Assembly: GCF_037996825.1 (NCBI RefSeq) | Contig: NZ_JBBNAC010000001.1 | Coordinates: forward strand, 1,178,001 to 1,242,000 | Reading direction: 5' to 3' | Length of the DNA: 64,000 nucleotides | DNA from: Bdellovibrio sp. BCCA | GTDB taxonomy: Bacteria; Bdellovibrionota; Bdellovibrionia; Bdellovibrionales; Bdellovibrionaceae | In this document: positions 11,229-64,000 of the stretch, in pieces | Numbering within the stretch: the first letter of the stretch is position 1 | How the letters are laid out: each line of letters begins with the position of its first letter | Made by a program: the position numbers and the translations under genes | Notes under the pieces: model-generated | Databases searched by the model: none | What the model saw: only the letters and a program-made list of their open reading frames with translations | Told to the model about the DNA's origin: nothing

Positions 11229-12614
11229 TTAAAATCCCTCTGTACCTTGTTTTGTACCAAGTTTTGTTGGGCGCATTTTTGAGCCTGTGCCGATCGCATC
11301 AATCAAAGATTTTCCGAAGTGGGTCATCTCTTTGGCCGTCGGATCGATACCGTCATCAATCGCGTCTTTTGTATTTGTGTCGTTTGGATCAACGGTGAAT
11401 TTCAAATTCTGCGGATTCAAAGCCACGCCGCCAGACGAAGAAACGCCTTGGTCTAAGATCGTCAAAGCTTTGTAGAGATTTAACTGACGAGACGTTCTTG
11501 TTTTAGACGCCAATTGAGTTTGCGCGTCTCCTGTTGCAAGAATATATTTTTTAACGTCTTCAGCTTTAAAAGATTGTTTGTGAGCCATCACCAAAGCCGC
11601 AGCACCCGTCACAAAGGCCGTCGCTTGAGACGTTCCCGTCATATATCCATAAGAACTTCCAGGAAGGCAGGAAAGAATATTCTGTCCTGGAGCTGCGATA
11701 TCCACGGTCTCAACACCATAGTTGGAAGACGCCAGAACTTGGATTGAAGGATCAATCGCGGTGACAGAGATAATATTGCTTAGCTTATAATCGGCAGGGT
11801 AGTAGTGATATTGGTCGGAATTCGATCTTTCATTACCTGCTGCTGCGACAAAAAGAATTCCTTTTTTCTGAGCTTCAGCAATAGCGTCGTGCTCTTCTTG
11901 AGAAAACTCAGTTCCGCCGCCGGAGTAATTGATAATATTCGCACCCATTTTCACAGCGTACTTAATTGCTGCGACCGTGTTTTTCAAATTGTCTGTGCCG
12001 GGAACTTTTGGATCGTAATACTTAAGAATCATCAAGCTCACTTCAGGGGCAATACCTGTAATACCTTTTCCGTTCCCAGCCTCAGAGCCAATGATACCGG
12101 CGATATGAGTTCCGTGACCGTGATTGTCGTCGAGTTTTGGATTGTTGCTTACAAAGTTCCAACCATAAACGTCGTCAACAAAACCATTGCCGTCGTCGTC
12201 AATACCGTTTGTCGCTTTGTCACGGCCTTGAGCATCTTTGCCTGTCTCTCCAGGGTTTCTCCAAAGATTGTGAGCTAAGTCTTCGTGTTTAACGTCAATA
12301 CCTGTATCGATCACGGCAACGACGATATCGCGGCTGCCTTTAGTCACAGACCATGCACGAGCGGCGTCGGACTTTTTAAGTCCCCAAGCTTGGCTGATGG
12401 CAGGGTCGTTGAAAAGGGCACTGGGTTCGTCTTCAACTTTGTCTGTTTTGGAAGTGATGAAAGAGTTTTCAAAAATACGATTGCTGTCTTTTTTGCTCGA
12501 ACTTTGTGTGCGTGATGGAGATGACGATTCTGTTGAATAGAGATAAATCCCTAAACCGCCAAAGAAAACCAAACCGACACATGCTGCTGCAATCCACACT
12601 TTGCGAGAAAACAT
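11229..12614 (-). CDS. S8 (subtilisin-like) serine protease, membrane-anchored or secreted
   Basis: 461 residues. A single N-terminal hydrophobic segment (about 7-26) acts as signal or anchor; then a short pro-region and a complete S8 domain with the triad Asp103 (VAVIDTGID), His167 (NHGHGTHIAG) and Ser329 (MTGTSQATAF), plus the oxyanion Asn261 (AAAGNE). The Ser motif reads GTSQA where GTSMA is usual. A 100-residue C-terminal tail of unknown fold follows. AGAAAGGGG precedes the ATG by 10 nt. A CCGATAAG box (12640-12647) lies upstream, the same octamer seen at the fibre-gene promoters. Likely role: extracytoplasmic proteolysis, which in a predator could target prey. Confidence 0.9.
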   Translation of the reverse strand: MFSRKVWIAAACVGLVFFGGLGIYLYSTESSSPSRTQSSSKKDSNRIFENSFITSKTDKVEDEPSALFNDPAISQAWGLKKSDAARAWSVTKGSRDIVVAVIDTGIDVKHEDLAHNLWRNPGETGKDAQGRDKATNGIDDDGNGFVDDVYGWNFVSNNPKLDDNHGHGTHIAGIIGSEAGNGKGITGIAPEVSLMILKYYDPKVPGTDNLKNTVAAIKYAVKMGANIINYSGGGTEFSQEEHDAIAEAQKKGILFVAAAGNERSNSDQYHYYPADYKLSNIISVTAIDPSIQVLASSNYGVETVDIAAPGQNILSCLPGSSYGYMTGTSQATAFVTGAAALVMAHKQSFKAEDVKKYILATGDAQTQLASKTRTSRQLNLYKALTILDQGVSSSGGVALNPQNLKFTVDPNDTNTKDAIDDGIDPTAKEMTHFGKSLIDAIGTGSKMRPTKLGTKQGTEGF

Positions 12615-12694
12615 GAATTTTCCCCTTTCTCCACCATCTCTTATCGGTGTTTAGGGGAGGGTTCATAATAGTGTTTGCGGATTTTGTTTCAGAG

Positions 12695-54212: not shown

Positions 54213-55883
54213 ATGTCTCAAGAGATTATCTACACAATGAAGGGCGTAAGTAAAGTATATCCTCCACAAAGATACGTTTTGAAGGATATTTATCTTTCTT
54301 ACTTCTATGGAGCGAAAATCGGAGTTTTGGGTCTGAACGGCTCTGGAAAATCCACTTTGCTCAGAATTATGGCAGGCGTAGACAAAGATTTTCTTGGTGA
54401 AGCCTTCCCATCGAAGACAATGAAAGTCGGTTACTTCGAGCAAGAACCACAGCTCGATAATACAATGACGGTGAAAGAAAATATTTTTGCCGGCATGGGC
54501 GAACTTCCAAAGTTGATGAAAGAATACAACGCCATCAATGACAAATTCAGCGATCCTGATTTGGATCCGGATGAGATGAACAAACTCATCGAAAAACAAG
54601 GCGCTATTCAGGAAAAATTAGAAGCGTTGGGCGCTTGGGATGTGGATCAAAAAATTGAAATCGTGATGGACGCTCTTCGCTGTCCAGATGGTGATCTGCC
54701 GGTAACAAACTTATCGGGTGGTGAAAAACGTCGTGTCGCCTTGGCAAGATTGATTATGTCAGAGCCAGATATTTTGTTGCTTGATGAGCCGACGAATCAC
54801 TTGGACGCAGAATCTGTAGCATGGCTTGAACAATATCTTTCAAAATTCCCAGGAACCGTAATCGCTGTTACGCATGATCGTTATTTCTTGGATAATGTAG
54901 CTGGTTGGATTTTAGAATTGGATCGCGGTGAAGGTATTCCTTGGAAAGGGAACTACACATCTTGGCTTGAACAAAAAGACAAGCGCATGGCGAACGAAGC
55001 CAAAGACCAAGCTCGCAAAGCGAAAACTTTGGAGCGCGAGTTGGATTGGATTCGTCAAGGCGCGAAAGCTCGCCAAGCGAAATCGAAAGCCCGTATCTCT
55101 AACTATGAAAATCTAATTAAGGAAGCATCTCCTGAAAAAATCCAAGAGATGTCTATCTACATTCCACCGGGACCTCGTTTGGGTGATATCGTTGTTGAAG
55201 CTAAAGGCATCACGAAAGCTTATAACCACAAAGTTCTTTTGGACGATGTGAGTTTCACAATTCCTCGCGGCGCGATCGTCGGCGTAATTGGACCGAACGG
55301 TGTGGGTAAATCGACTTTGTTCCGCATGATCACTGGAAAAGAACAACCAGATTCTGGAACTTTCAAAGTCGGGGATACAGTGAAGATTGCTTACGTGGAT
55401 CAAACACGTGAGACGTTGGATCCAAACAAGACGATCTATGAGGAGCTTTCTGGCGGCGCTGATGTCGTTCAGTTAGGAACCCGCGAGATCAATGCTCGTC
55501 AATACGTTTCTTGGTTTAACTTCTCTGGCACAGACCAACAGAAAAAAGTCGGTCAGTTATCGGGTGGTGAAAGAAACCGTGTGAACATGGCGAAGATCCT
55601 TAAAGAAGGTGCGAACCTTTTGCTTCTGGATGAGCCGACGAATGATCTGGATGTAAATACAATGCGTGCTCTTGAGGAAGCTCTTCTTGAGTTCGGTGGA
55701 TCTGCCGTGGTGATTTCGCATGACCGTTGGTTCTTAGATCGTGTTTGCACGCATATCATGGCTTTCGAAGGGGAATCTAAAATTGAATTCTTCCCGGGGA
55801 ACTTCTCTGAGTACGAGGAAGATCGTAAGAAACGTTTGGGCGAGAATGCTGGTCCAAAACGAGTTCGTTTCAAGATGGTTTAA
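54213..55883 (+). CDS. ettA: Energy-dependent translational throttle protein EttA (ABC-F)
   Basis: 556 residues. Two ABC domains with Walker A GLNGSGKST and GPNGVGKST, signature LSGGEKRRVALARL and LSGGERNRVNMAKIL, and Walker B LLLDEPTNHLD and LLLDEPTNDLD, joined by the P-site-tRNA-interaction linker (KRMANEAKDQARKAKTLERE). The arm in domain 1 and the length are as in EttA. It gates the first peptide bond according to ATP/ADP. AGGAGAGG precedes the ATG. Confidence 0.95.
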   Translation: MSQEIIYTMKGVSKVYPPQRYVLKDIYLSYFYGAKIGVLGLNGSGKSTLLRIMAGVDKDFLGEAFPSKTMKVGYFEQEPQLDNTMTVKENIFAGMGELPKLMKEYNAINDKFSDPDLDPDEMNKLIEKQGAIQEKLEALGAWDVDQKIEIVMDALRCPDGDLPVTNLSGGEKRRVALARLIMSEPDILLLDEPTNHLDAESVAWLEQYLSKFPGTVIAVTHDRYFLDNVAGWILELDRGEGIPWKGNYTSWLEQKDKRMANEAKDQARKAKTLERELDWIRQGAKARQAKSKARISNYENLIKEASPEKIQEMSIYIPPGPRLGDIVVEAKGITKAYNHKVLLDDVSFTIPRGAIVGVIGPNGVGKSTLFRMITGKEQPDSGTFKVGDTVKIAYVDQTRETLDPNKTIYEELSGGADVVQLGTREINARQYVSWFNFSGTDQQKKVGQLSGGERNRVNMAKILKEGANLLLLDEPTNDLDVNTMRALEEALLEFGGSAVVISHDRWFLDRVCTHIMAFEGESKIEFFPGNFSEYEEDRKKRLGENAGPKRVRFKMV

Positions 55884-56077: not shown

Positions 56078-59000
56078 TTACTTTTTTTGATTCTGACTTG
56101 AGTGCAATGCTTTTTCTATTTGCTCTAGACGCATTTTCATTTCGGCGTTGTCGGCTTTGAGTTTTTCGGTTTCTTTTTTTAATTGTAGATTCTCTTCTTG
56201 GATTGAGGCTATGGAGCGGTCTACTTTTTCGTTTTGGTCTTGCCACTTATTGTAGAATTCTTTGAGGGCGGCGATGACTGGTGCGACTAGGTTTGAATAG
56301 CTTACTGATTTGTAGCCGTCTCTGTTGTTTTGGACTACTTCGGGATAGATTTTTTCTATCTCTTGGGCGATCAAACCTACTTGTTGTTTTTTGTCGTATT
56401 TTTCTTGGTCTTTCCAGTTGTAGGTTACGGGGCGGATTTGTAAGACTTTTTCTAATTGGTTGTCCATGGTGTGGATGTCTTTTTTCAGGCGTTCGTCTGA
56501 GGCTTGGCTGAGGGTGCCTTTGATCCACATATTTCCTACGTTGGATACGGACATCAATGTTACGCCGGCGCCGAATGTTCCGTTGAACAATGCGAAGGTT
56601 CCGTCTGTTTCGTGGGTCATGTGGATGTTGCTGGAACCTCCGTCGTTACCCAACATCAAAGAGGCGTAGCCGGTTCCCGATGTGATGTGCAGTTGCGCTG
56701 CTGGCGTCAGTGTTCCCATTCCTACTTTTCCATTCGGGGAAAGTGCTAATGGCGAAATGTAAGTCGCGAAGGAGCCTGTTCCTGATTGATCGGCGTCGAA
56801 GCGTAGCTGGGCTCCGTCAAGAGGGACGCGCCAATATTTTCCAGGGACTGCGCCTTGATCTGTTTCAGTGAATGCTAAAGGAACTGCGGCGTCATCAATG
56901 CGCACGGTGCTAGCTACATGTAGTTTGGCGGACGGGGTAGTTGTCCCTATACCCACGTTACCTGCATTCATTGCTGTGACTAACGCGTATCTGTTTGTGA
57001 TCGTACCGGCACCTGTCGGAGCAGAGATGTAAAGACCTTGCCATGTATCCAGTGTCATGCCGCTGGCCACAACAGGAGCTTCGATGTTAACACCCTTAAG
57101 AATGTACGGAGCATTGCCGTTGATATTGGCGTTGGCAGCTGTGATCTGCGCGTCGAATGATGTCGGTGCTCCGGTAGCTGTAGCAGAGCGAATATACTCT
57201 GCGCGCAGAACTTGGTTGGAGCCTGAATTAGCTGTGCTGTTGTCCGTGTATCTATAAAAACCTGACGTATTAATCGAGGCATTTGCTGAAGACGTCGTAT
57301 TTGTCGAAGTGACATAGTGAGTGGAAGTTTGTCCGGTTAGTAAATTCGAGACGATATGCACAGGATAAGTCGGCGCCGCCGTTCCAATACCGATGTAACC
57401 GCTCGACGTGATTCGCATGCGCTCTGTGCTTCCTCCGCCGACTTTATTTGTGGAGAAGGTCATTGGTTGTGCTTGGAAGGTGCTGATGTCAAACGTATTT
57501 GTCGCGTTTGATTGGAGGTAGGTGATGGTTCCCCCTGCGGATTGCCCCCAAACTCCCAAGTAAACTTTATTCGTTCCCGCATTCAAAGTCAGAGAAGACG
57601 CGCCTGTTGCATCTGTATTGGAGGCTTGAATCCCACTCGACATTGCACTGAAACTTATATCCAATGGTGTCGCGGGATTTGCAACCCCGATTCCCACATT
57701 TCCTCCGGATAAAATCGTCATGCGTGTTGATCCACCTGTTTTAAATGCTAGTGAATAAGCGTCGTTTGTTCCAAGTGTGGCGTTGCCCCCAAAACTATTT
57801 CCACCATTTGCGAAAATTCCTGAAGCCGAGTAGTTCGTGCATCCCATCACGCCAGCCGCATCAAAAGTCACGAGCTGCCCAACAGCGCAAGTGAATGCGG
57901 TGATTGTCGAGCCAGTAACATCACTAGCAAGAAGTCTATTTGCCGTCAGTGAAGTAACTCCCGTACCGCCTTTTGAAACCGGTACAGCAGAAGGGAAGTT
58001 TGCCGGATCAGCACTGATAGTTCCTGATGTGACAGCGATACCCGCACCGACTTGCACGGCACCTTTTGCTGAAGTGGTGGCGTCGTTAATTGAAATCGCT
58101 GGTGTTGTTGAGCCTGTTGCAACGACAATCGGTGCCGTACCTGTAACATTAGTCACAGTTCCATTTGTTGGAGTGATCCACTGAAGACCTGAAGCTTGCG
58201 CTGAGTTTGCTGATAACACTTGTCCATTTGTACCAACAGGCAAACGAATGTCATTCGTTCCGTCGTGAACAATCAAGTCACCTTTTGTTGTACTTGGAGA
58301 AAGACCGTTGAAGGCAGCGGTCGCCGTCGTTTGTCCCGTACCACCATTTGCAATTGGTAAGGTACCTGTCACTTCAGTTGCTAAATTTACAGCAGCACCA
58401 TTGCTTGCAGCTGTTAAACGACCTTGAGAATCGACTGTGATATTTGCACGAGTATAAGATCCTGCAGTCACAGCTGTATTTGCCAATGAAATAGTTCCAG
58501 TAGAAGTAATCGGGCCACCACTAAGCCCTGTACCTGTCGCAATATTTGTAACGGTACCGCCAGCATTGGTATCTGTATCGCTCGCGCACTCCCAACGAGA
58601 GTTAGCAGCAATCCATTTTAAAACTTGTCCATCAGTACAAGCGACATTGTTCGGTTTATATGTTAAGTATTTTGATGCAGCACTGTTGATATCACCGTAA
58701 TCAAGAGTCACAGCACCAGTTTTAGATGCAACAGAAGTCACAGGAAATGCAATGGCAGTATTTGAAGCCGCCGTTAAGCGTCCTTGAGCATCAACCGTAA
58801 AAGTTCCCACTTGTGTTGTTGAACCATAGGAACCCGCAGTCACGGCAGTATTCGCAAGTGAAATGGTTCCTGTCGTAGTAATAGGCCCGCCACTTAAACC
58901 AGTACCAGTTGCGATATTAGTAACAGTACCTCCTGCATTTGAATCCGCCGCAGGAGCCCATTTCGTTCCATCATATTTCAAAATTTGGCCAGAAGTTAAT

Positions 59001-60157
59001 CCAGTTGTATCAACGTCTACACCTTTAATCTTATTAACGGAAACAGCTCCAATAGTGCCACTCACATCACCCGCAACAGAAACATTGATCGCCTGACATT
59101 GAAAAGACCCAGAGACAGAATTCCAATACGGCGTCTGATGAGCAGCACAGTTCGCACTCCCAACAGCAGAATTAAACGCAGCCACGGTATGGTAATTATT
59201 CAAAGAGGAATTCAAATTAGTAACATCACTCATCCCAATGGCAGCCCCAATCCACTGAGTGCCATCAAACTTCAAAAAATTTCCATTTGTTGGTGCAGCA
59301 CTAGCAACTGCAACATTTTGAATCTTCGCCACAGAAGGATTCGGATAAGTTCCAGACAAATCTCCACCCGCAGCTCCCGTAGGAACGCGAGCATTCGTAA
59401 AACGAGAATCATCTCCAGCCGCGACGGTTCCCGCACCTGTGCCAACATTCAAAGTTACAAGGGGAGTCGAAGTGTTGTTCGTAATTGTTACATAAGAGTT
59501 CCCCGATGTAACATTAGTCACGGTCCCGCCACTCGCACCAGTTACAGGAGCACAGACGAAAGTGCTTCCATTCCAAGATAAAAACTCATTGGAATTACAC
59601 GTCGGCACACTCGTCTTTAAAAGAAAATCCGTAGCGATATTAGTTCCCAATTTCTTCGCAGAAAGTGCATAAGCCGAGTAGGGTACGGAACGAATCACAT
59701 TGTCCGGAGAAATCAAACGCCAAGCGCTGCCGTCGTGAAACTGCGCTCTTAAAAGGCGACCATCCGTTTGCACCGGAGAATAATTGCTCGTGCTATCAGA
59801 GCAAGTATATCCACTGCAAGCTCCGCAAGTGAAAGTCGAAGAGTTGTTGAAAGAATCAAGAACCGTAAATCCACCGCCTAAAGGGTAATTGACTCCACCT
59901 TTTCCGATGGGAACGTCAAAGACGCCTTTAGAGTTCGCCATATTTACACCAGTCACTTGCTCTTGATAGATCACGCATTGACCGGAAGGATCCATGATTT
60001 GAAAAATGAAACTGACATTGGAATATTCCAGCGGAGTTCCGTCAGATTTAATAATACGACCTTGATAAGTTAATGAAGACGGAGAAGCATTGCCTTGTAT
60101 TGGGAAAATAGAAAGCGAAGCGAGAAGTAAGATACCAAGTAAGTACAATGATCTCAT
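56078..60157 (-). CDS. MAT-like surface fibre with S74 (endosialidase-type) chaperone domain
   Basis: 1359 residues. Signal peptide (MRSLYLLGILLLASLSIFPI, cleaved near NAS). Residues about 25-190 are a beta domain (SSLTYQGRIIKSDGTPLEYS, KGVFDVPIGKGG, GRLLRAQFHDGSAWRLI) shared with the next gene. Then about 900 residues of phage-tail-fibre-like repeats (GGTVTNIATGTGLSGGPIT twice) and a C-terminal S74 domain starting SDERLKKDIHTMDNQLEKVL, followed by a coiled coil. S74 domains trimerise and self-cleave at the SD site in phage fibres. The layout fits the Bdellovibrio mosaic adhesive trimers that bind prey surfaces (my recollection). Promoter 60164-60194; no ribosome site. Confidence 0.85.
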   Translation of the reverse strand: MRSLYLLGILLLASLSIFPIQGNASPSSLTYQGRIIKSDGTPLEYSNVSFIFQIMDPSGQCVIYQEQVTGVNMANSKGVFDVPIGKGGVNYPLGGGFTVLDSFNNSSTFTCGACSGYTCSDSTSNYSPVQTDGRLLRAQFHDGSAWRLISPDNVIRSVPYSAYALSAKKLGTNIATDFLLKTSVPTCNSNEFLSWNGSTFVCAPVTGASGGTVTNVTSGNSYVTITNNTSTPLVTLNVGTGAGTVAAGDDSRFTNARVPTGAAGGDLSGTYPNPSVAKIQNVAVASAAPTNGNFLKFDGTQWIGAAIGMSDVTNLNSSLNNYHTVAAFNSAVGSANCAAHQTPYWNSVSGSFQCQAINVSVAGDVSGTIGAVSVNKIKGVDVDTTGLTSGQILKYDGTKWAPAADSNAGGTVTNIATGTGLSGGPITTTGTISLANTAVTAGSYGSTTQVGTFTVDAQGRLTAASNTAIAFPVTSVASKTGAVTLDYGDINSAASKYLTYKPNNVACTDGQVLKWIAANSRWECASDTDTNAGGTVTNIATGTGLSGGPITSTGTISLANTAVTAGSYTRANITVDSQGRLTAASNGAAVNLATEVTGTLPIANGGTGQTTATAAFNGLSPSTTKGDLIVHDGTNDIRLPVGTNGQVLSANSAQASGLQWITPTNGTVTNVTGTAPIVVATGSTTPAISINDATTSAKGAVQVGAGIAVTSGTISADPANFPSAVPVSKGGTGVTSLTANRLLASDVTGSTITAFTCAVGQLVTFDAAGVMGCTNYSASGIFANGGNSFGGNATLGTNDAYSLAFKTGGSTRMTILSGGNVGIGVANPATPLDISFSAMSSGIQASNTDATGASSLTLNAGTNKVYLGVWGQSAGGTITYLQSNATNTFDISTFQAQPMTFSTNKVGGGSTERMRITSSGYIGIGTAAPTYPVHIVSNLLTGQTSTHYVTSTNTTSSANASINTSGFYRYTDNSTANSGSNQVLRAEYIRSATATGAPTSFDAQITAANANINGNAPYILKGVNIEAPVVASGMTLDTWQGLYISAPTGAGTITNRYALVTAMNAGNVGIGTTTPSAKLHVASTVRIDDAAVPLAFTETDQGAVPGKYWRVPLDGAQLRFDADQSGTGSFATYISPLALSPNGKVGMGTLTPAAQLHITSGTGYASLMLGNDGGSSNIHMTHETDGTFALFNGTFGAGVTLMSVSNVGNMWIKGTLSQASDERLKKDIHTMDNQLEKVLQIRPVTYNWKDQEKYDKKQQVGLIAQEIEKIYPEVVQNNRDGYKSVSYSNLVAPVIAALKEFYNKWQDQNEKVDRSIASIQEENLQLKKETEKLKADNAEMKMRLEQIEKALHSSQNQKK
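58451..58562 (-). repeat. Fibre repeat unit 2
   Basis: Encodes GGTVTNIATGTGLSGGPITS and on to NTAVTAGSY, nearly identical in protein to the unit at 58827-58938 but with many synonymous differences in DNA. Confidence 0.7.
58827..58938 (-). repeat. Fibre repeat unit 1
   Basis: Encodes GGTVTNIATGTGLSGGPITT and on to NTAVTAGSY. Partner of 58451-58562. The DNA has diverged at third positions, so the duplication is old and kept by selection on the protein. Confidence 0.7.
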
Positions 60158-60163
60158 GGGGAA

Positions 60164-60194
60164 CTTATCGGAATTTTGTCAAAAAAACTTCACT
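60164..60194 (-). promoter_or_regulatory. Sigma-28-like promoter of the S74 fibre gene (predicted leaderless)
   Basis: On the minus strand AGTGAAG (60194-60188), 16 nt, CCGATAAG (60171-60164); the ATG starts 6 nt later. The -10 matches the FliA core GCCGATAA. The same boxes and distances occur before the neighbouring fibre gene. No ribosome site exists between them and the ATG. Confidence 0.6.
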
Positions 60195-60224
60195 GTTCCC
60201 GAGAGTTGCCTGTCTCAAAATGAG

Positions 60225-62921
60225 CTAGTCGCACTGATAAACGGCGCGCAACTTAAAAAGACTTCCTGGAGTTGTAAGGCTGAAATGAAATCCGCCATTT
60301 GTGGCGACACCGGCGACCCCATATCCAGGAGACTCTCCCGGATTTAAGACCTGCCAATCTGTATCGTTTCCTGAAGCCACTGCTTGAGCAAGGTAGCTCA
60401 AACAATTTCCCGAAGGAAGTCCGTTGTCACATTCACCTGTCGTCCAATAGTGCCATGCTGTGTTTGTGCCAGCATCCAGATTGATGGATGTACTATTATA
60501 AGAACACACCGTCATGCGGGCTATAGTTCTTCCGCCGTATTTCACAGAGCCATTGATTTCTAATTTGGCTGTTGGAGCCGAAACTCCGATTCCAGTGTTT
60601 CCATTTTTTAAAACAACCACGGCGTTGGAGCGTGCGCTTGTTGAAGTTCCGTTACCGATAACAAACAAAGGGTCGGTCGCGACAATCGCCGTAGGATTTT
60701 CGGTGCCCGTGGTTGCGCTGTACATTCCGACTGAAATCTGATTAATGGCGGGTGCCAAATTATTTCTTCCCAAGGCTGTTGAAGCAGTGCCCGAGGCCAC
60801 AGTGTCCGCTCCCATAGCAACTGAAAACATGCCACTTGCAGTGACGGTATTTCCGATAGCAACCGCACTTTGTGATGAAGTTGCAAGAGCCGCAGTTCCT
60901 AAGGCGACAGAGTAAGGTCCATTCGCAGTATTTCCGCTTCCTATAGCCACGGAATTGGCTCCGTTGGCAGTGGTGTTATAACCAACAGCCAGCGAGTGAG
61001 TTCCGATGGAAGCATCATCCCACTGAGTGCCAGTAACTGATCCGGCACGAAAAGCACCTTTGCGCGGATACCAGATCATGCGTGTGCCAGCGCCACTTGA
61101 TGCTAAAGTGCGACCTAAAGCGAAATCTCCTTTGGCAAGAATTCCGCCGTCGTTTTCTAAAGACAGTCTAAACTCAGGTGCGTTCGTTCCAACTCCTAAT
61201 TCACCACTGCTTGTAAGGCGCATGCGTTCAGCCACCGTCGTTGCACCCGAAGGCGTCGTTTCAAAAAGAATATTTCCCGCCGAAGATGTCGCCGTGAAGT
61301 TTTCAGCCGCCGCAAAAGTAATTTGCGCTGACTTTCCAACATTCCAGGCAGAATCCGTGGCTCCGTATCCTGTCAAATACAACATTTGATCCTGAGCTTG
61401 CAAAGAGGCGGGACTTGCTTCGCTTCCTCGGAAGGCCATTCCCATATAGGAACTTCCAATTCCCGAGTTCGTATAACTTTGCGCAATCACCCCGGCATTC
61501 CCAGCTCCCGAGCCGTTGGTTTTTACAACTTGCAGATAAACGCTGTCAGTGCCGCGCACGTCTAACTCTTCTGATGGAGAAGAAACACCAATACCGACAA
61601 GACCACTGGAAGAAATTTTCATGCGGGAAATATTATTTGTTTCAAAGGAAAGCGCTTGAGAATCATTTGTTCCCACGCTTAACGTTGCACCCGTGCTATT
61701 TCCGCCGTCTAAAAGGGCACCACTGGCTCCCGTTGGAAGAAGAGAAGCGGGAACCCGACCGGAGCCATCAAGTTCAATCACATTTCCTGCGGATGTTCCT
61801 ACATTTTTTGTTGCTGCAGTTCCGAGTCCCGTGACTTGAGAATTCGCAATTGAAATCGAAGTGCAAGACAGCGAATCGGTAATCGCACTCCAAGTCAAAG
61901 TTTTGTCAGCCGTCGCACAGGAACTTGGCATCTGTGTCGCACCCGTGACCGTCGAGCGAAGCTGACCCAAACCAAAATACTGAACATCCCATTGAGTGCC
62001 ACCATAGACGAACGCTTGGCCCGCTGAAGGTGTGCTATTTGATACCGCGACGCCTTGAATTTTTTCAACCTTCGTTCCGGCACTTCCTGAAGTTGAAGTG
62101 ACGTCTCCAGAAAGGTTGGCTGTTGCGCCAACATTATCGTCTGCCGGAGCCCAATTCGTTCCGTTGAATTTCAAAACTTTTCCCGAAGCATTTCCGGTCA
62201 TAGAAACAGCGACGCCTTTGATTTTATCCACACTCGTTGCTGATTGAGTGCCAGAGACATCTCCGCTTAAAGATCCCGTAAATCCCGCAGAGCTTCCAGA
62301 AATATTTCCACTCACATTGCTTCCGGAAACAGACGGTGTGGTGCACTCAAAGGTTCCAACGGGGGCGATATGTCTTAGGTATTGTCCAGCCGTACAAAGA
62401 GGAACTGAAGATTTTAACAAAAAGTCCGCGGCAGAGTTGTTCCCCAGTTTTTGCGCCGACTTTGCAACAGCCGCAAAGGGGACAGCGCGAATTTCACTGT
62501 CGGGAGTGATCAATCTCCAACCAACACCATCAAAGAACTGCACGCGCAACAAACGTTTGTCATCTAAAACGGGTGTGTAGGTGCCTCCGCTTTCGCAGTT
62601 ATATGTCGTGGAGTTATCAAAACTGTCGAGGAGTTTAAAGCTCGGTGTTCCGGGATAAGCTTTTGTTCCCGTTCCGATGGGGACATCAAACACGCCCTTG
62701 GAGTTTCTCATGTCGATGCCATTGGAAATTTCGCGGTAGATCGTGCAGGAACCCGTCGGATTGGTGATAGAAAATTCGAATTGCACGCCATTCACTTCAA
62801 GAGCGGTTCCCTGAGTGTTTTGAATGCGGCCTTGATAGGTGAGAGAACCCGGAACGCCCCATACTCTCTCGACCGCCAGTAAGACCAGCAATGAATGCAC
62901 CAAAAAGTTCCGAATATTCAT
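60225..62921 (-). CDS. MAT-like surface fibre with YadA-type head repeats and a distinct tip
   Basis: 898 residues. Signal peptide (MNIRNFLVHSLLVLLAVERV, cleaved near WGV). Residues about 23-190 repeat the N-terminal beta domain of the neighbouring fibre (GSLTYQGRIQNTQGTALEVN, KGVFDVPIGTGT, KRLLRVQFFDGVGWRLI). The shaft has LSGDVSGTQSATSVDKIKGV repeats, then 14-residue YadA-like head repeats (SVAIGSGNTANGPY, SVALGTAALATSS, SVAMGADTVASGT) at about 640-730. The last about 110 residues (MTVCSYNSTSINLDAG to YQCD) form a Cys- and Trp-containing tip I do not recognise; no S74 domain. Probably a trimeric prey-binding fibre. Promoter 62928-62958; no ribosome site. Confidence 0.82.
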   Translation of the reverse strand: MNIRNFLVHSLLVLLAVERVWGVPGSLTYQGRIQNTQGTALEVNGVQFEFSITNPTGSCTIYREISNGIDMRNSKGVFDVPIGTGTKAYPGTPSFKLLDSFDNSTTYNCESGGTYTPVLDDKRLLRVQFFDGVGWRLITPDSEIRAVPFAAVAKSAQKLGNNSAADFLLKSSVPLCTAGQYLRHIAPVGTFECTTPSVSGSNVSGNISGSSAGFTGSLSGDVSGTQSATSVDKIKGVAVSMTGNASGKVLKFNGTNWAPADDNVGATANLSGDVTSTSGSAGTKVEKIQGVAVSNSTPSAGQAFVYGGTQWDVQYFGLGQLRSTVTGATQMPSSCATADKTLTWSAITDSLSCTSISIANSQVTGLGTAATKNVGTSAGNVIELDGSGRVPASLLPTGASGALLDGGNSTGATLSVGTNDSQALSFETNNISRMKISSSGLVGIGVSSPSEELDVRGTDSVYLQVVKTNGSGAGNAGVIAQSYTNSGIGSSYMGMAFRGSEASPASLQAQDQMLYLTGYGATDSAWNVGKSAQITFAAAENFTATSSAGNILFETTPSGATTVAERMRLTSSGELGVGTNAPEFRLSLENDGGILAKGDFALGRTLASSGAGTRMIWYPRKGAFRAGSVTGTQWDDASIGTHSLAVGYNTTANGANSVAIGSGNTANGPYSVALGTAALATSSQSAVAIGNTVTASGMFSVAMGADTVASGTASTALGRNNLAPAINQISVGMYSATTGTENPTAIVATDPLFVIGNGTSTSARSNAVVVLKNGNTGIGVSAPTAKLEINGSVKYGGRTIARMTVCSYNSTSINLDAGTNTAWHYWTTGECDNGLPSGNCLSYLAQAVASGNDTDWQVLNPGESPGYGVAGVATNGGFHFSLTTPGSLFKLRAVYQCD

Positions 62922-62927
62922 AGAGAC

Positions 62928-62958
62928 CTTATCGGTCTATTCCGAGGAGGCCTTCACT
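62928..62958 (-). promoter_or_regulatory. Sigma-28-like promoter of the second fibre gene (predicted leaderless)
   Basis: AGTGAAG (62958-62952), 16 nt, CCGATAAG (62935-62928), ATG 6 nt later: the same boxes and both distances as at 60164-60194, while the spacer sequences differ. Confidence 0.6.
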
Positions 62959-62989
62959 TTGCAAAGTTATATTGGTTCGCTGCGAGACT

Positions 62990-64000
62990 CTATACTGTCG
63001 TTTTAGCCAGAGGGAGTTTCAAAGTGACACGAGTACCACGAGGTTGTGTCTGTGTGGCTTTTTCTTGAGAGTGGATTTCAATCGTTCCATCCATCATCTG
63101 TAAATATTCTTTTACAAGTGGCATGCCGTAGCCAGTGCCTTTTTCTCCTTGAGTTCCAGAGCGAGTCGTTTGCGCATTGAGATTGAAGATCTGATTGAGA
63201 ATATGCTCAGGAATCCCAATGCCATAATCTTGAATTTCGATGATAACCTGTTCATCGGTCGAATACGCTTTAAGATCAATGCGATCCCCCGGATGAGAGA
63301 ACTTAATGGCGTTGTTCAAAAGATTTAATAGAACGACGTTGCTCAAGATGGTTTTTTCACCGTTGATCAACATGCGATCGCGGGAAATATCCAAAGACAG
63401 CTTGATGCCTTTTTTCTGAGCCACACCCAAGGTGCTCTCGTAGACTTCGTGCAAAACCAGGGTGAGAGAGATCGGCTTCAAAGGCAGAGCAGCTTTTCCA
63501 TCTTTAACAGATTTTAAATGCCGCACCTGCGCAAGCAGATTGTTGATATCATCCACAGCCTTTTCAATTTTTTCAAACTCCAAAGAGCTGATGCTGTTCT
63601 CGCGATCTTCTTTGGCTTTGACCAAATTGTAAGTCATCGAAGAAAGAGTGTTAGCGATGTCATGAATCAAAACGCGTAAAAGGTTCTCGATATCGAGATT
63701 TTTCTCCATGAGGCGTTTCATAAAACGTTCTTCGCCCATTATATATTGATGCGTCGTAAAGCAGGAGAAGATCAGAAAGGTGACAAGGTTAAAGAGCTTT
63801 TCTTTTCCGTAGTCGCCATAGTCTGCAATAACATTCGGTCCTAGGTCGTTGGCCTTAAGATACCAGAAAAAGATGATGATCGAAGCAACGATGAAGTAAC
63901 CCACCACGGCGCCAGGAAGTCCGATCAAAATTCCCAAGACCAAAGGAACGGCGGCAAGCCAAAAGACCCCTGGGGCGTCTCCTCCTCCGGCCGTGTAAAG
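62990..64000 (-). CDS. Partial sensor histidine kinase (N-terminus beyond right edge)
   Basis: The frame stays open to base 64000 (upstream residues read LYTAGGGDAPGVFWLAAVPL before the LVLGILIGLPG helix), so the true start is outside the window. Visible: four hydrophobic segments, then a dimerisation box VLIHDIANTLSSMTYNLV (His-Asp-Ile-x-Asn rather than His-Glu), N box LLNLLNNAIKFSHPGD, G1 IQDYGIGIPEHIL, and G2 GTGYGMPLVKEYL. A membrane histidine kinase of the HisKA/HATPase type with a 7-TM-like input region. No response regulator is visible on this side. Confidence 0.88.
   Translation of the reverse strand, partial: LYTAGGGDAPGVFWLAAVPLVLGILIGLPGAVVGYFIVASIIIFFWYLKANDLGPNVIADYGDYGKEKLFNLVTFLIFSCFTTHQYIMGEERFMKRLMEKNLDIENLLRVLIHDIANTLSSMTYNLVKAKEDRENSISSLEFEKIEKAVDDINNLLAQVRHLKSVKDGKAALPLKPISLTLVLHEVYESTLGVAQKKGIKLSLDISRDRMLINGEKTILSNVVLLNLLNNAIKFSHPGDRIDLKAYSTDEQVIIEIQDYGIGIPEHILNQIFNLNAQTTRSGTQGEKGTGYGMPLVKEYLQMMDGTIEIHSQEKATQTQPRGTRVTLKLPLAKTTV

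Follow-up and report, generated by a model that had tools for sequence, protein, structure and literature searches.

FliA-type promoters at a fixed distance from the start codon predict leaderless mRNAs for two adhesive fibre genes of Bdellovibrio

Introduction

In Bdellovibrio bacteriovorus, 140 attack-phase promoters have been mapped, of which 92 carry the motif TTAAG-N16-CCGATA and were assigned to the flagellar sigma factor FliA (sigma-28), with 'cell-surface anchor' genes among the targets (Karunker 2013, PMC3627812). FliA is essential in this bacterium (PMC3627812), and Bdellovibrio FliA drives flagellin and TAD promoters in E. coli (PMC5430801). The sigma-28 part of the arrangement described below, and its link to surface proteins, are therefore not new. 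Unlike the present analysis, however, the main text of PMC3627812 mentions neither leaderless mRNAs nor a fixed distance between the -10 element and the start codon.

Leaderless genes have been described behind sigma-70-like promoters (Zheng et al., 2011, PMC3160421; for Deinococcus-Thermus, PMC12340547), where the -10 element lies about 10-12 bp before ATG and a Shine-Dalgarno sequence is missing, much as at the fibre genes studied here. The -10 element of those genes is TANNNT, whereas the Bdellovibrio fibre genes have a sigma-28 box and TATAAT shows no enrichment. Since leaderless genes are usually surveyed by their sigma-70 boxes, a sigma-28 leaderless class would be missed. The fibres themselves belong to the mosaic adhesive trimers (MATs), which are built of a signal peptide, a common N-terminal domain, a fibre and an S74 or other tip (Caulton et al., 2024, PMC10769870); the words 'promoter' and 'FliA' are absent from the main text of that paper. 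In the literature searched we found no report of leaderless mRNAs in Bdellovibrio. Here we analyse two MAT genes in a 64,000-nt stretch of the genome of Bdellovibrio sp. BCCA (contig NZ_JBBNAC010000001.1, positions 1,178,001 to 1,242,000), hereafter the window, in which positions are counted from its first letter.

Results

The two genes are adjacent on the minus strand. The gene at 60225..62921 encodes an 898-aa non-S74 protein with a signal peptide, the MAT N-terminal domain and YadA head repeats, and that at 56078..60157 a 1359-aa protein with a signal peptide, the MAT N-terminal domain and a C-terminal Peptidase_S74 domain. In both, the signal peptide is followed by the conserved N-terminal domain of about 130 aa, which is 50-60% identical to that of other MATs, and both have a trimeric tip of a known kind (Peptidase_S74 in the 1359-aa protein, the YadA head in the 898-aa protein); sequence comparison also matches both to solved Bdellovibrio fibre tips. 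The first 186 columns of the two proteins are 54% identical, and the gaps upstream of the genes are 67-68 nt long.

Ahead of the 898-aa gene, and on the same strand, the -35 element AGTGAAG (62952..62958) is followed by the -10 octamer CCGATAAG (62928..62935) and by the 6-nt discriminator GTCTCT (62922..62927), the last base of which, directly before ATG, is a pyrimidine. The promoter of the 1359-aa gene, also on the minus strand, has AGTGAAG at 60188..60194, CCGATAAG at 60164..60171 and the discriminator TTCCCC, likewise ending in a pyrimidine, at 60158..60163. The initial annotation had described this layout as AGTGAAG-N16-CCGATAAG-N6-ATG, with equal distances and unlike spacers, and the letters bear this out, the pattern being matched exactly at 62958-62919 and 60194-60155. 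Its reading of CCGATAA as a FliA -10 agrees with the published TTAAG-N16-CCGATA: CCGATAAG corresponds to CCGATA(A) in both promoters, the TGAAG part of the -35 element differs from TTAAG by one mismatch, the spacer is 16 nt as in the attack-phase promoters of B. bacteriovorus, and the genome encodes FliA (TIGR02479, 281.8 bits against a cut-off of 189.6). In the orthologues of the 898-aa gene in HD100 and in a further genome (G002), the boxes and their distance are kept, while the spacer and the 6 nt before ATG have changed.

The annotation had also proposed searching for the same motif before other fibre genes. The AGTGAAG form turned out to be confined to the two fibre promoters, whereas many MAT genes have CCGA at the same spacing from the start codon. 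Within the whole 4.01-Mb genome, AGTGAAG-N15..17-CCGATAAG occurs only as the two copies in the window (reversed control, 0), and AGTGAAG was therefore rejected as a general -35 element. Taken together, 48 MAT promoters give T-T-A-A-(A/G) as their -35 consensus, and the AGTGAAG 7-mer is not their common element.

The octamer by itself is found four times in the window, against 1.15 expected. One copy, at 54710, has no gene start after it, and another precedes a subtilase gene (12640..12647, minus strand), which the annotation had set beside the fibre genes. The octamer is indeed shared, but the architecture differs, as 25 nt with a good Shine-Dalgarno sequence (GGAGAAAGGGG) separate it from the ATG at 12614; we therefore regard this as a leadered FliA-like promoter, outside the leaderless class.

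If d is the length in bases of the gap from CCGATAAG to ATG, this genome has 18 sites at d=6 (leaving out one further d=6 site masked by an overlapping ATG) and 8 at d=7, whereas the other values from 0 to 30 average 2.2 sites, giving a Poisson probability of 3e-11 for the peak. Thirteen Bdellovibrio genomes together contain 213 matches to the d=6 pattern and 12 to its reverse. Exact -10-to-ATG matches number 6-23 per Bdellovibrio genome searched, and a scan of genome contigs returned only 13 loci, Bdellovibrio in every case. TATAAT followed by ATG within 20 nt has no comparable excess (257 vs 237 reversed), so a general closeness of promoters to ATG is not the cause of the peak. Counts of GTG and TTG at d=6 in the 13 genomes (45 vs 17 reversed; 185 vs 10 in the ATG comparison) were considered as a test of strict AUG use and dropped as non-discriminating, because ATG makes up 48 of the 54 starts in the window anyway. 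Apart from the MAT fibre genes, which form the largest group in the class TTAAG-N16-CCGATAAG-N5-Y-ATG, genes with this spacing encode lipoproteins, TPR, PilZ and HD-domain proteins. The 6-nt segment TGAGAC, which places an in-frame TGA directly before ATG, recurs in many genomes and here stands ahead of a YfiO/TPR gene and an HD-domain gene. A weaker d=6 peak is also seen in another family of the phylum, in two genomes (G110 and G099) of which one has 12 of 64 sites at this spacing and the other 10 of 63; this suggests that the putative leaderless sigma-28 arrangement extends beyond Bdellovibrio.

This genome contains 28 MAT genes, and CCGATAA lies at d=6 in 10 of them and at d=5 in another 2. 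Over four genomes, 49 of 88 MAT genes have CCGA at d=6, and no other single spacing accounts for more than five; about a quarter of MAT genes are without a recognisable FliA box near the start. A tetramer resembling a Shine-Dalgarno sequence was present in only 4 of 51 close-spaced MATs, but in 8 of the 15 with a more distant -10 box; Shine-Dalgarno sequences are thus more frequent where the leader of a FliA gene is longer.

RNA polymerase tends to start at a purine (+1) that follows a pyrimidine (-1). If the fibre mRNAs are leaderless, the A of ATG is +1 and the base before it is thus expected to be C or T. All 48 MAT genes conform to this, as do 149 of 167 N6 sites genus-wide and 38 of the 45 non-MAT genes; among the genes of the window, taken for comparison, the figure is 34 of 54. 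At positions -2 to -4 of the genus-wide d=6 sites there was no pyrimidine preference. Mapped ends are available for three FliA-type small RNAs of HD100, whose start coordinates are given in Table 2 of PMC3627812; we took one of our genomes (G006) to be evidently HD100, as its FliA boxes fall where those coordinates imply. The published starts of APsRNA6 and APsRNA7 both fall on the seventh base past the -10 octamer, corresponding exactly to d=6, unlike that of APsRNA3, which has a weak -10 and starts at d=10. A further small RNA, APsRNA5 (HD100 605341-605717), is not flagged as FliA-driven in PMC3627812, and CCGATAAG stands 22 nt ahead of the start given for it; that position may be a secondary 5' end or the product of processing.

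By the same geometry, +1 is predicted at the A at 62921 for the 898-aa gene and at the A at 60157 for the 1359-aa gene. In-frame stops 18 and 24 nt before the respective ATG, within the promoters, leave no earlier translation start for either gene, and more internal starts would truncate the signal peptide, which begins at the ATG in both. The annotation's statement that neither gene has a Shine-Dalgarno sequence holds for the 1359-aa gene, but at -9 to -6 of the 898-aa gene there is a weak AAGG, part of which is supplied by the -10 box. With the A of ATG as +1, this AAGG would lie upstream of the predicted start and so outside the RNA, and both predicted transcripts would then have no Shine-Dalgarno sequence and no upstream in-frame start.

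Most MAT genes share a further element, GNACGT, often in the form CGGAACGTAC and typically some 9-20 nt inside the predicted transcript. It begins 3-20 nt from the predicted +1 in 44 of 51 close-spaced MATs (background 0.1-0.2% per position) and leans to one strand in the start region (59 vs 21 for the reverse form). Because it is spread over the three reading frames (27, 9 and 8) and also lies within the 5' leaders of several leadered genes, it is probably conserved at the nucleic-acid level. GNACGT is present in 14 of 15 MATs vs 6 of 45 non-MAT genes. The latter compare with 1 of 41 window ORFs (Fisher p = 0.11); it was accordingly rejected as a general feature of FliA genes and is mainly a MAT feature. 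Both fibre genes have degenerate versions on the minus strand, GAACTT at 62905..62910 in the 898-aa gene, 11-16 nt after the predicted +1, and GTACTT at 60141..60146 in the 1359-aa gene, at an equal offset. We also considered the element as a target of attack-phase small RNAs, and none of eight HD100 small RNAs pairs with it clearly above shuffles.

Discussion

Our analysis suggests that both fibre genes would be transcribed in the attack phase by RNA polymerase with FliA, the -35 (TGAAG) and -10 (CCGATAAG) elements setting the start at the first base of the start codon or no more than 1-2 nt away, and that the resulting mRNAs, leaderless because of this placement, would be translated from a 5'-terminal AUG without a Shine-Dalgarno sequence. 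For the two genes, the sequence itself shows the boxes, their fixed spacing, the pyrimidine at -1, the lack of an earlier start and conservation; FliA dependence, the exact 5' end and leaderless translation we infer from it. Both would be members of a genus-wide class, and it is highly probable that FliA makes such mRNAs, with leaders of 0-2 nt, for the two fibres and for a wider attack-phase set. The initial annotation had predicted a start at or next to ATG and leaderless messages, and the d=6 peak, the genus-wide excess, the pyrimidine at -1 and the mapped HD100 starts all speak in its favour. Its tie between fibre expression and the flagellar sigma factor is likewise supported by the promoter consensus, the connection of FliA with surface genes having already been published.

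How short the leader is depends on the offset from the -10 element. Transcription of E. coli aer begins 6 bp downstream of the octamer GCCGACAT (PMC2859248), an offset 1-2 bases shorter than that assumed here, and the predicted fibre leader is therefore 0, at most 1-2 nt. A FliA-dependent start 1-5 nt upstream of ATG, leaving a very short leader rather than none, would fit the aer start, which corresponds to 1-2 nt here, as well as the variation by a few nucleotides seen at many promoters. Yet the pyrimidine preference is confined to -1 and absent at -2 or -3, and two mapped HD100 starts fall at d=6, so that we consider such a leader unlikely. It is very unlikely that transcription begins at a promoter further upstream, with CCGATAAG acting as an operator or occurring incidentally and translation being leadered: the 67-68 nt gaps would permit read-through from the upstream gene, and the weak AAGG near the start of the 898-aa gene could be taken in its favour, but the genus-wide enrichment and the pyrimidine at -1 argue against it, as does the 1359-aa gene, which is without a Shine-Dalgarno sequence.

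It might also be supposed that the two genes and other MATs simply inherited one promoter, the spacing having no functional meaning, given that the two are neighbours and similar over their N-terminal regions. The distance has nevertheless stayed unchanged where spacers and N6 segments diverged, and both this spacing and the pyrimidine at -1 recur in unrelated genes for lipoproteins and for TPR, PilZ and HD proteins. Shared descent of fibre genes thus fails to explain a class with such non-MAT members, and we regard this explanation as extremely improbable.

What appears to be new, as not found in the literature searched, is the fixed start-codon geometry across the genus together with the GNACGT element. 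If leaderless expression is confirmed, a model predator would produce a whole set of its prey-contact proteins from messages lacking a ribosome-binding site and controlled by the defining sigma factor of the attack phase, and start-codon calls and reporter design for genes of the fibre type would be corrected. The leaderless reading predicts exact 5' ends, which can be checked against start-site data already published. It is conceivable, if doubtful, that the attack-phase surface arsenal has a translation mode of its own, in which FliA makes a leaderless class and GNACGT adds a second layer of control in the fibre genes, so that the fibres are switched jointly at the initiation step as the cell departs from or encounters prey.

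The 898-aa gene has a recurrent neighbour: in three genomes, a 134-aa gene with a weak DnaJ match, which is also of the N6 class, lies about 1.9 kb upstream of it (G000:C1:1242781; HD100 1261887/1263770; G002 1386086/1387971). In the window (62921-64000), a histidine kinase gene is situated between the two.
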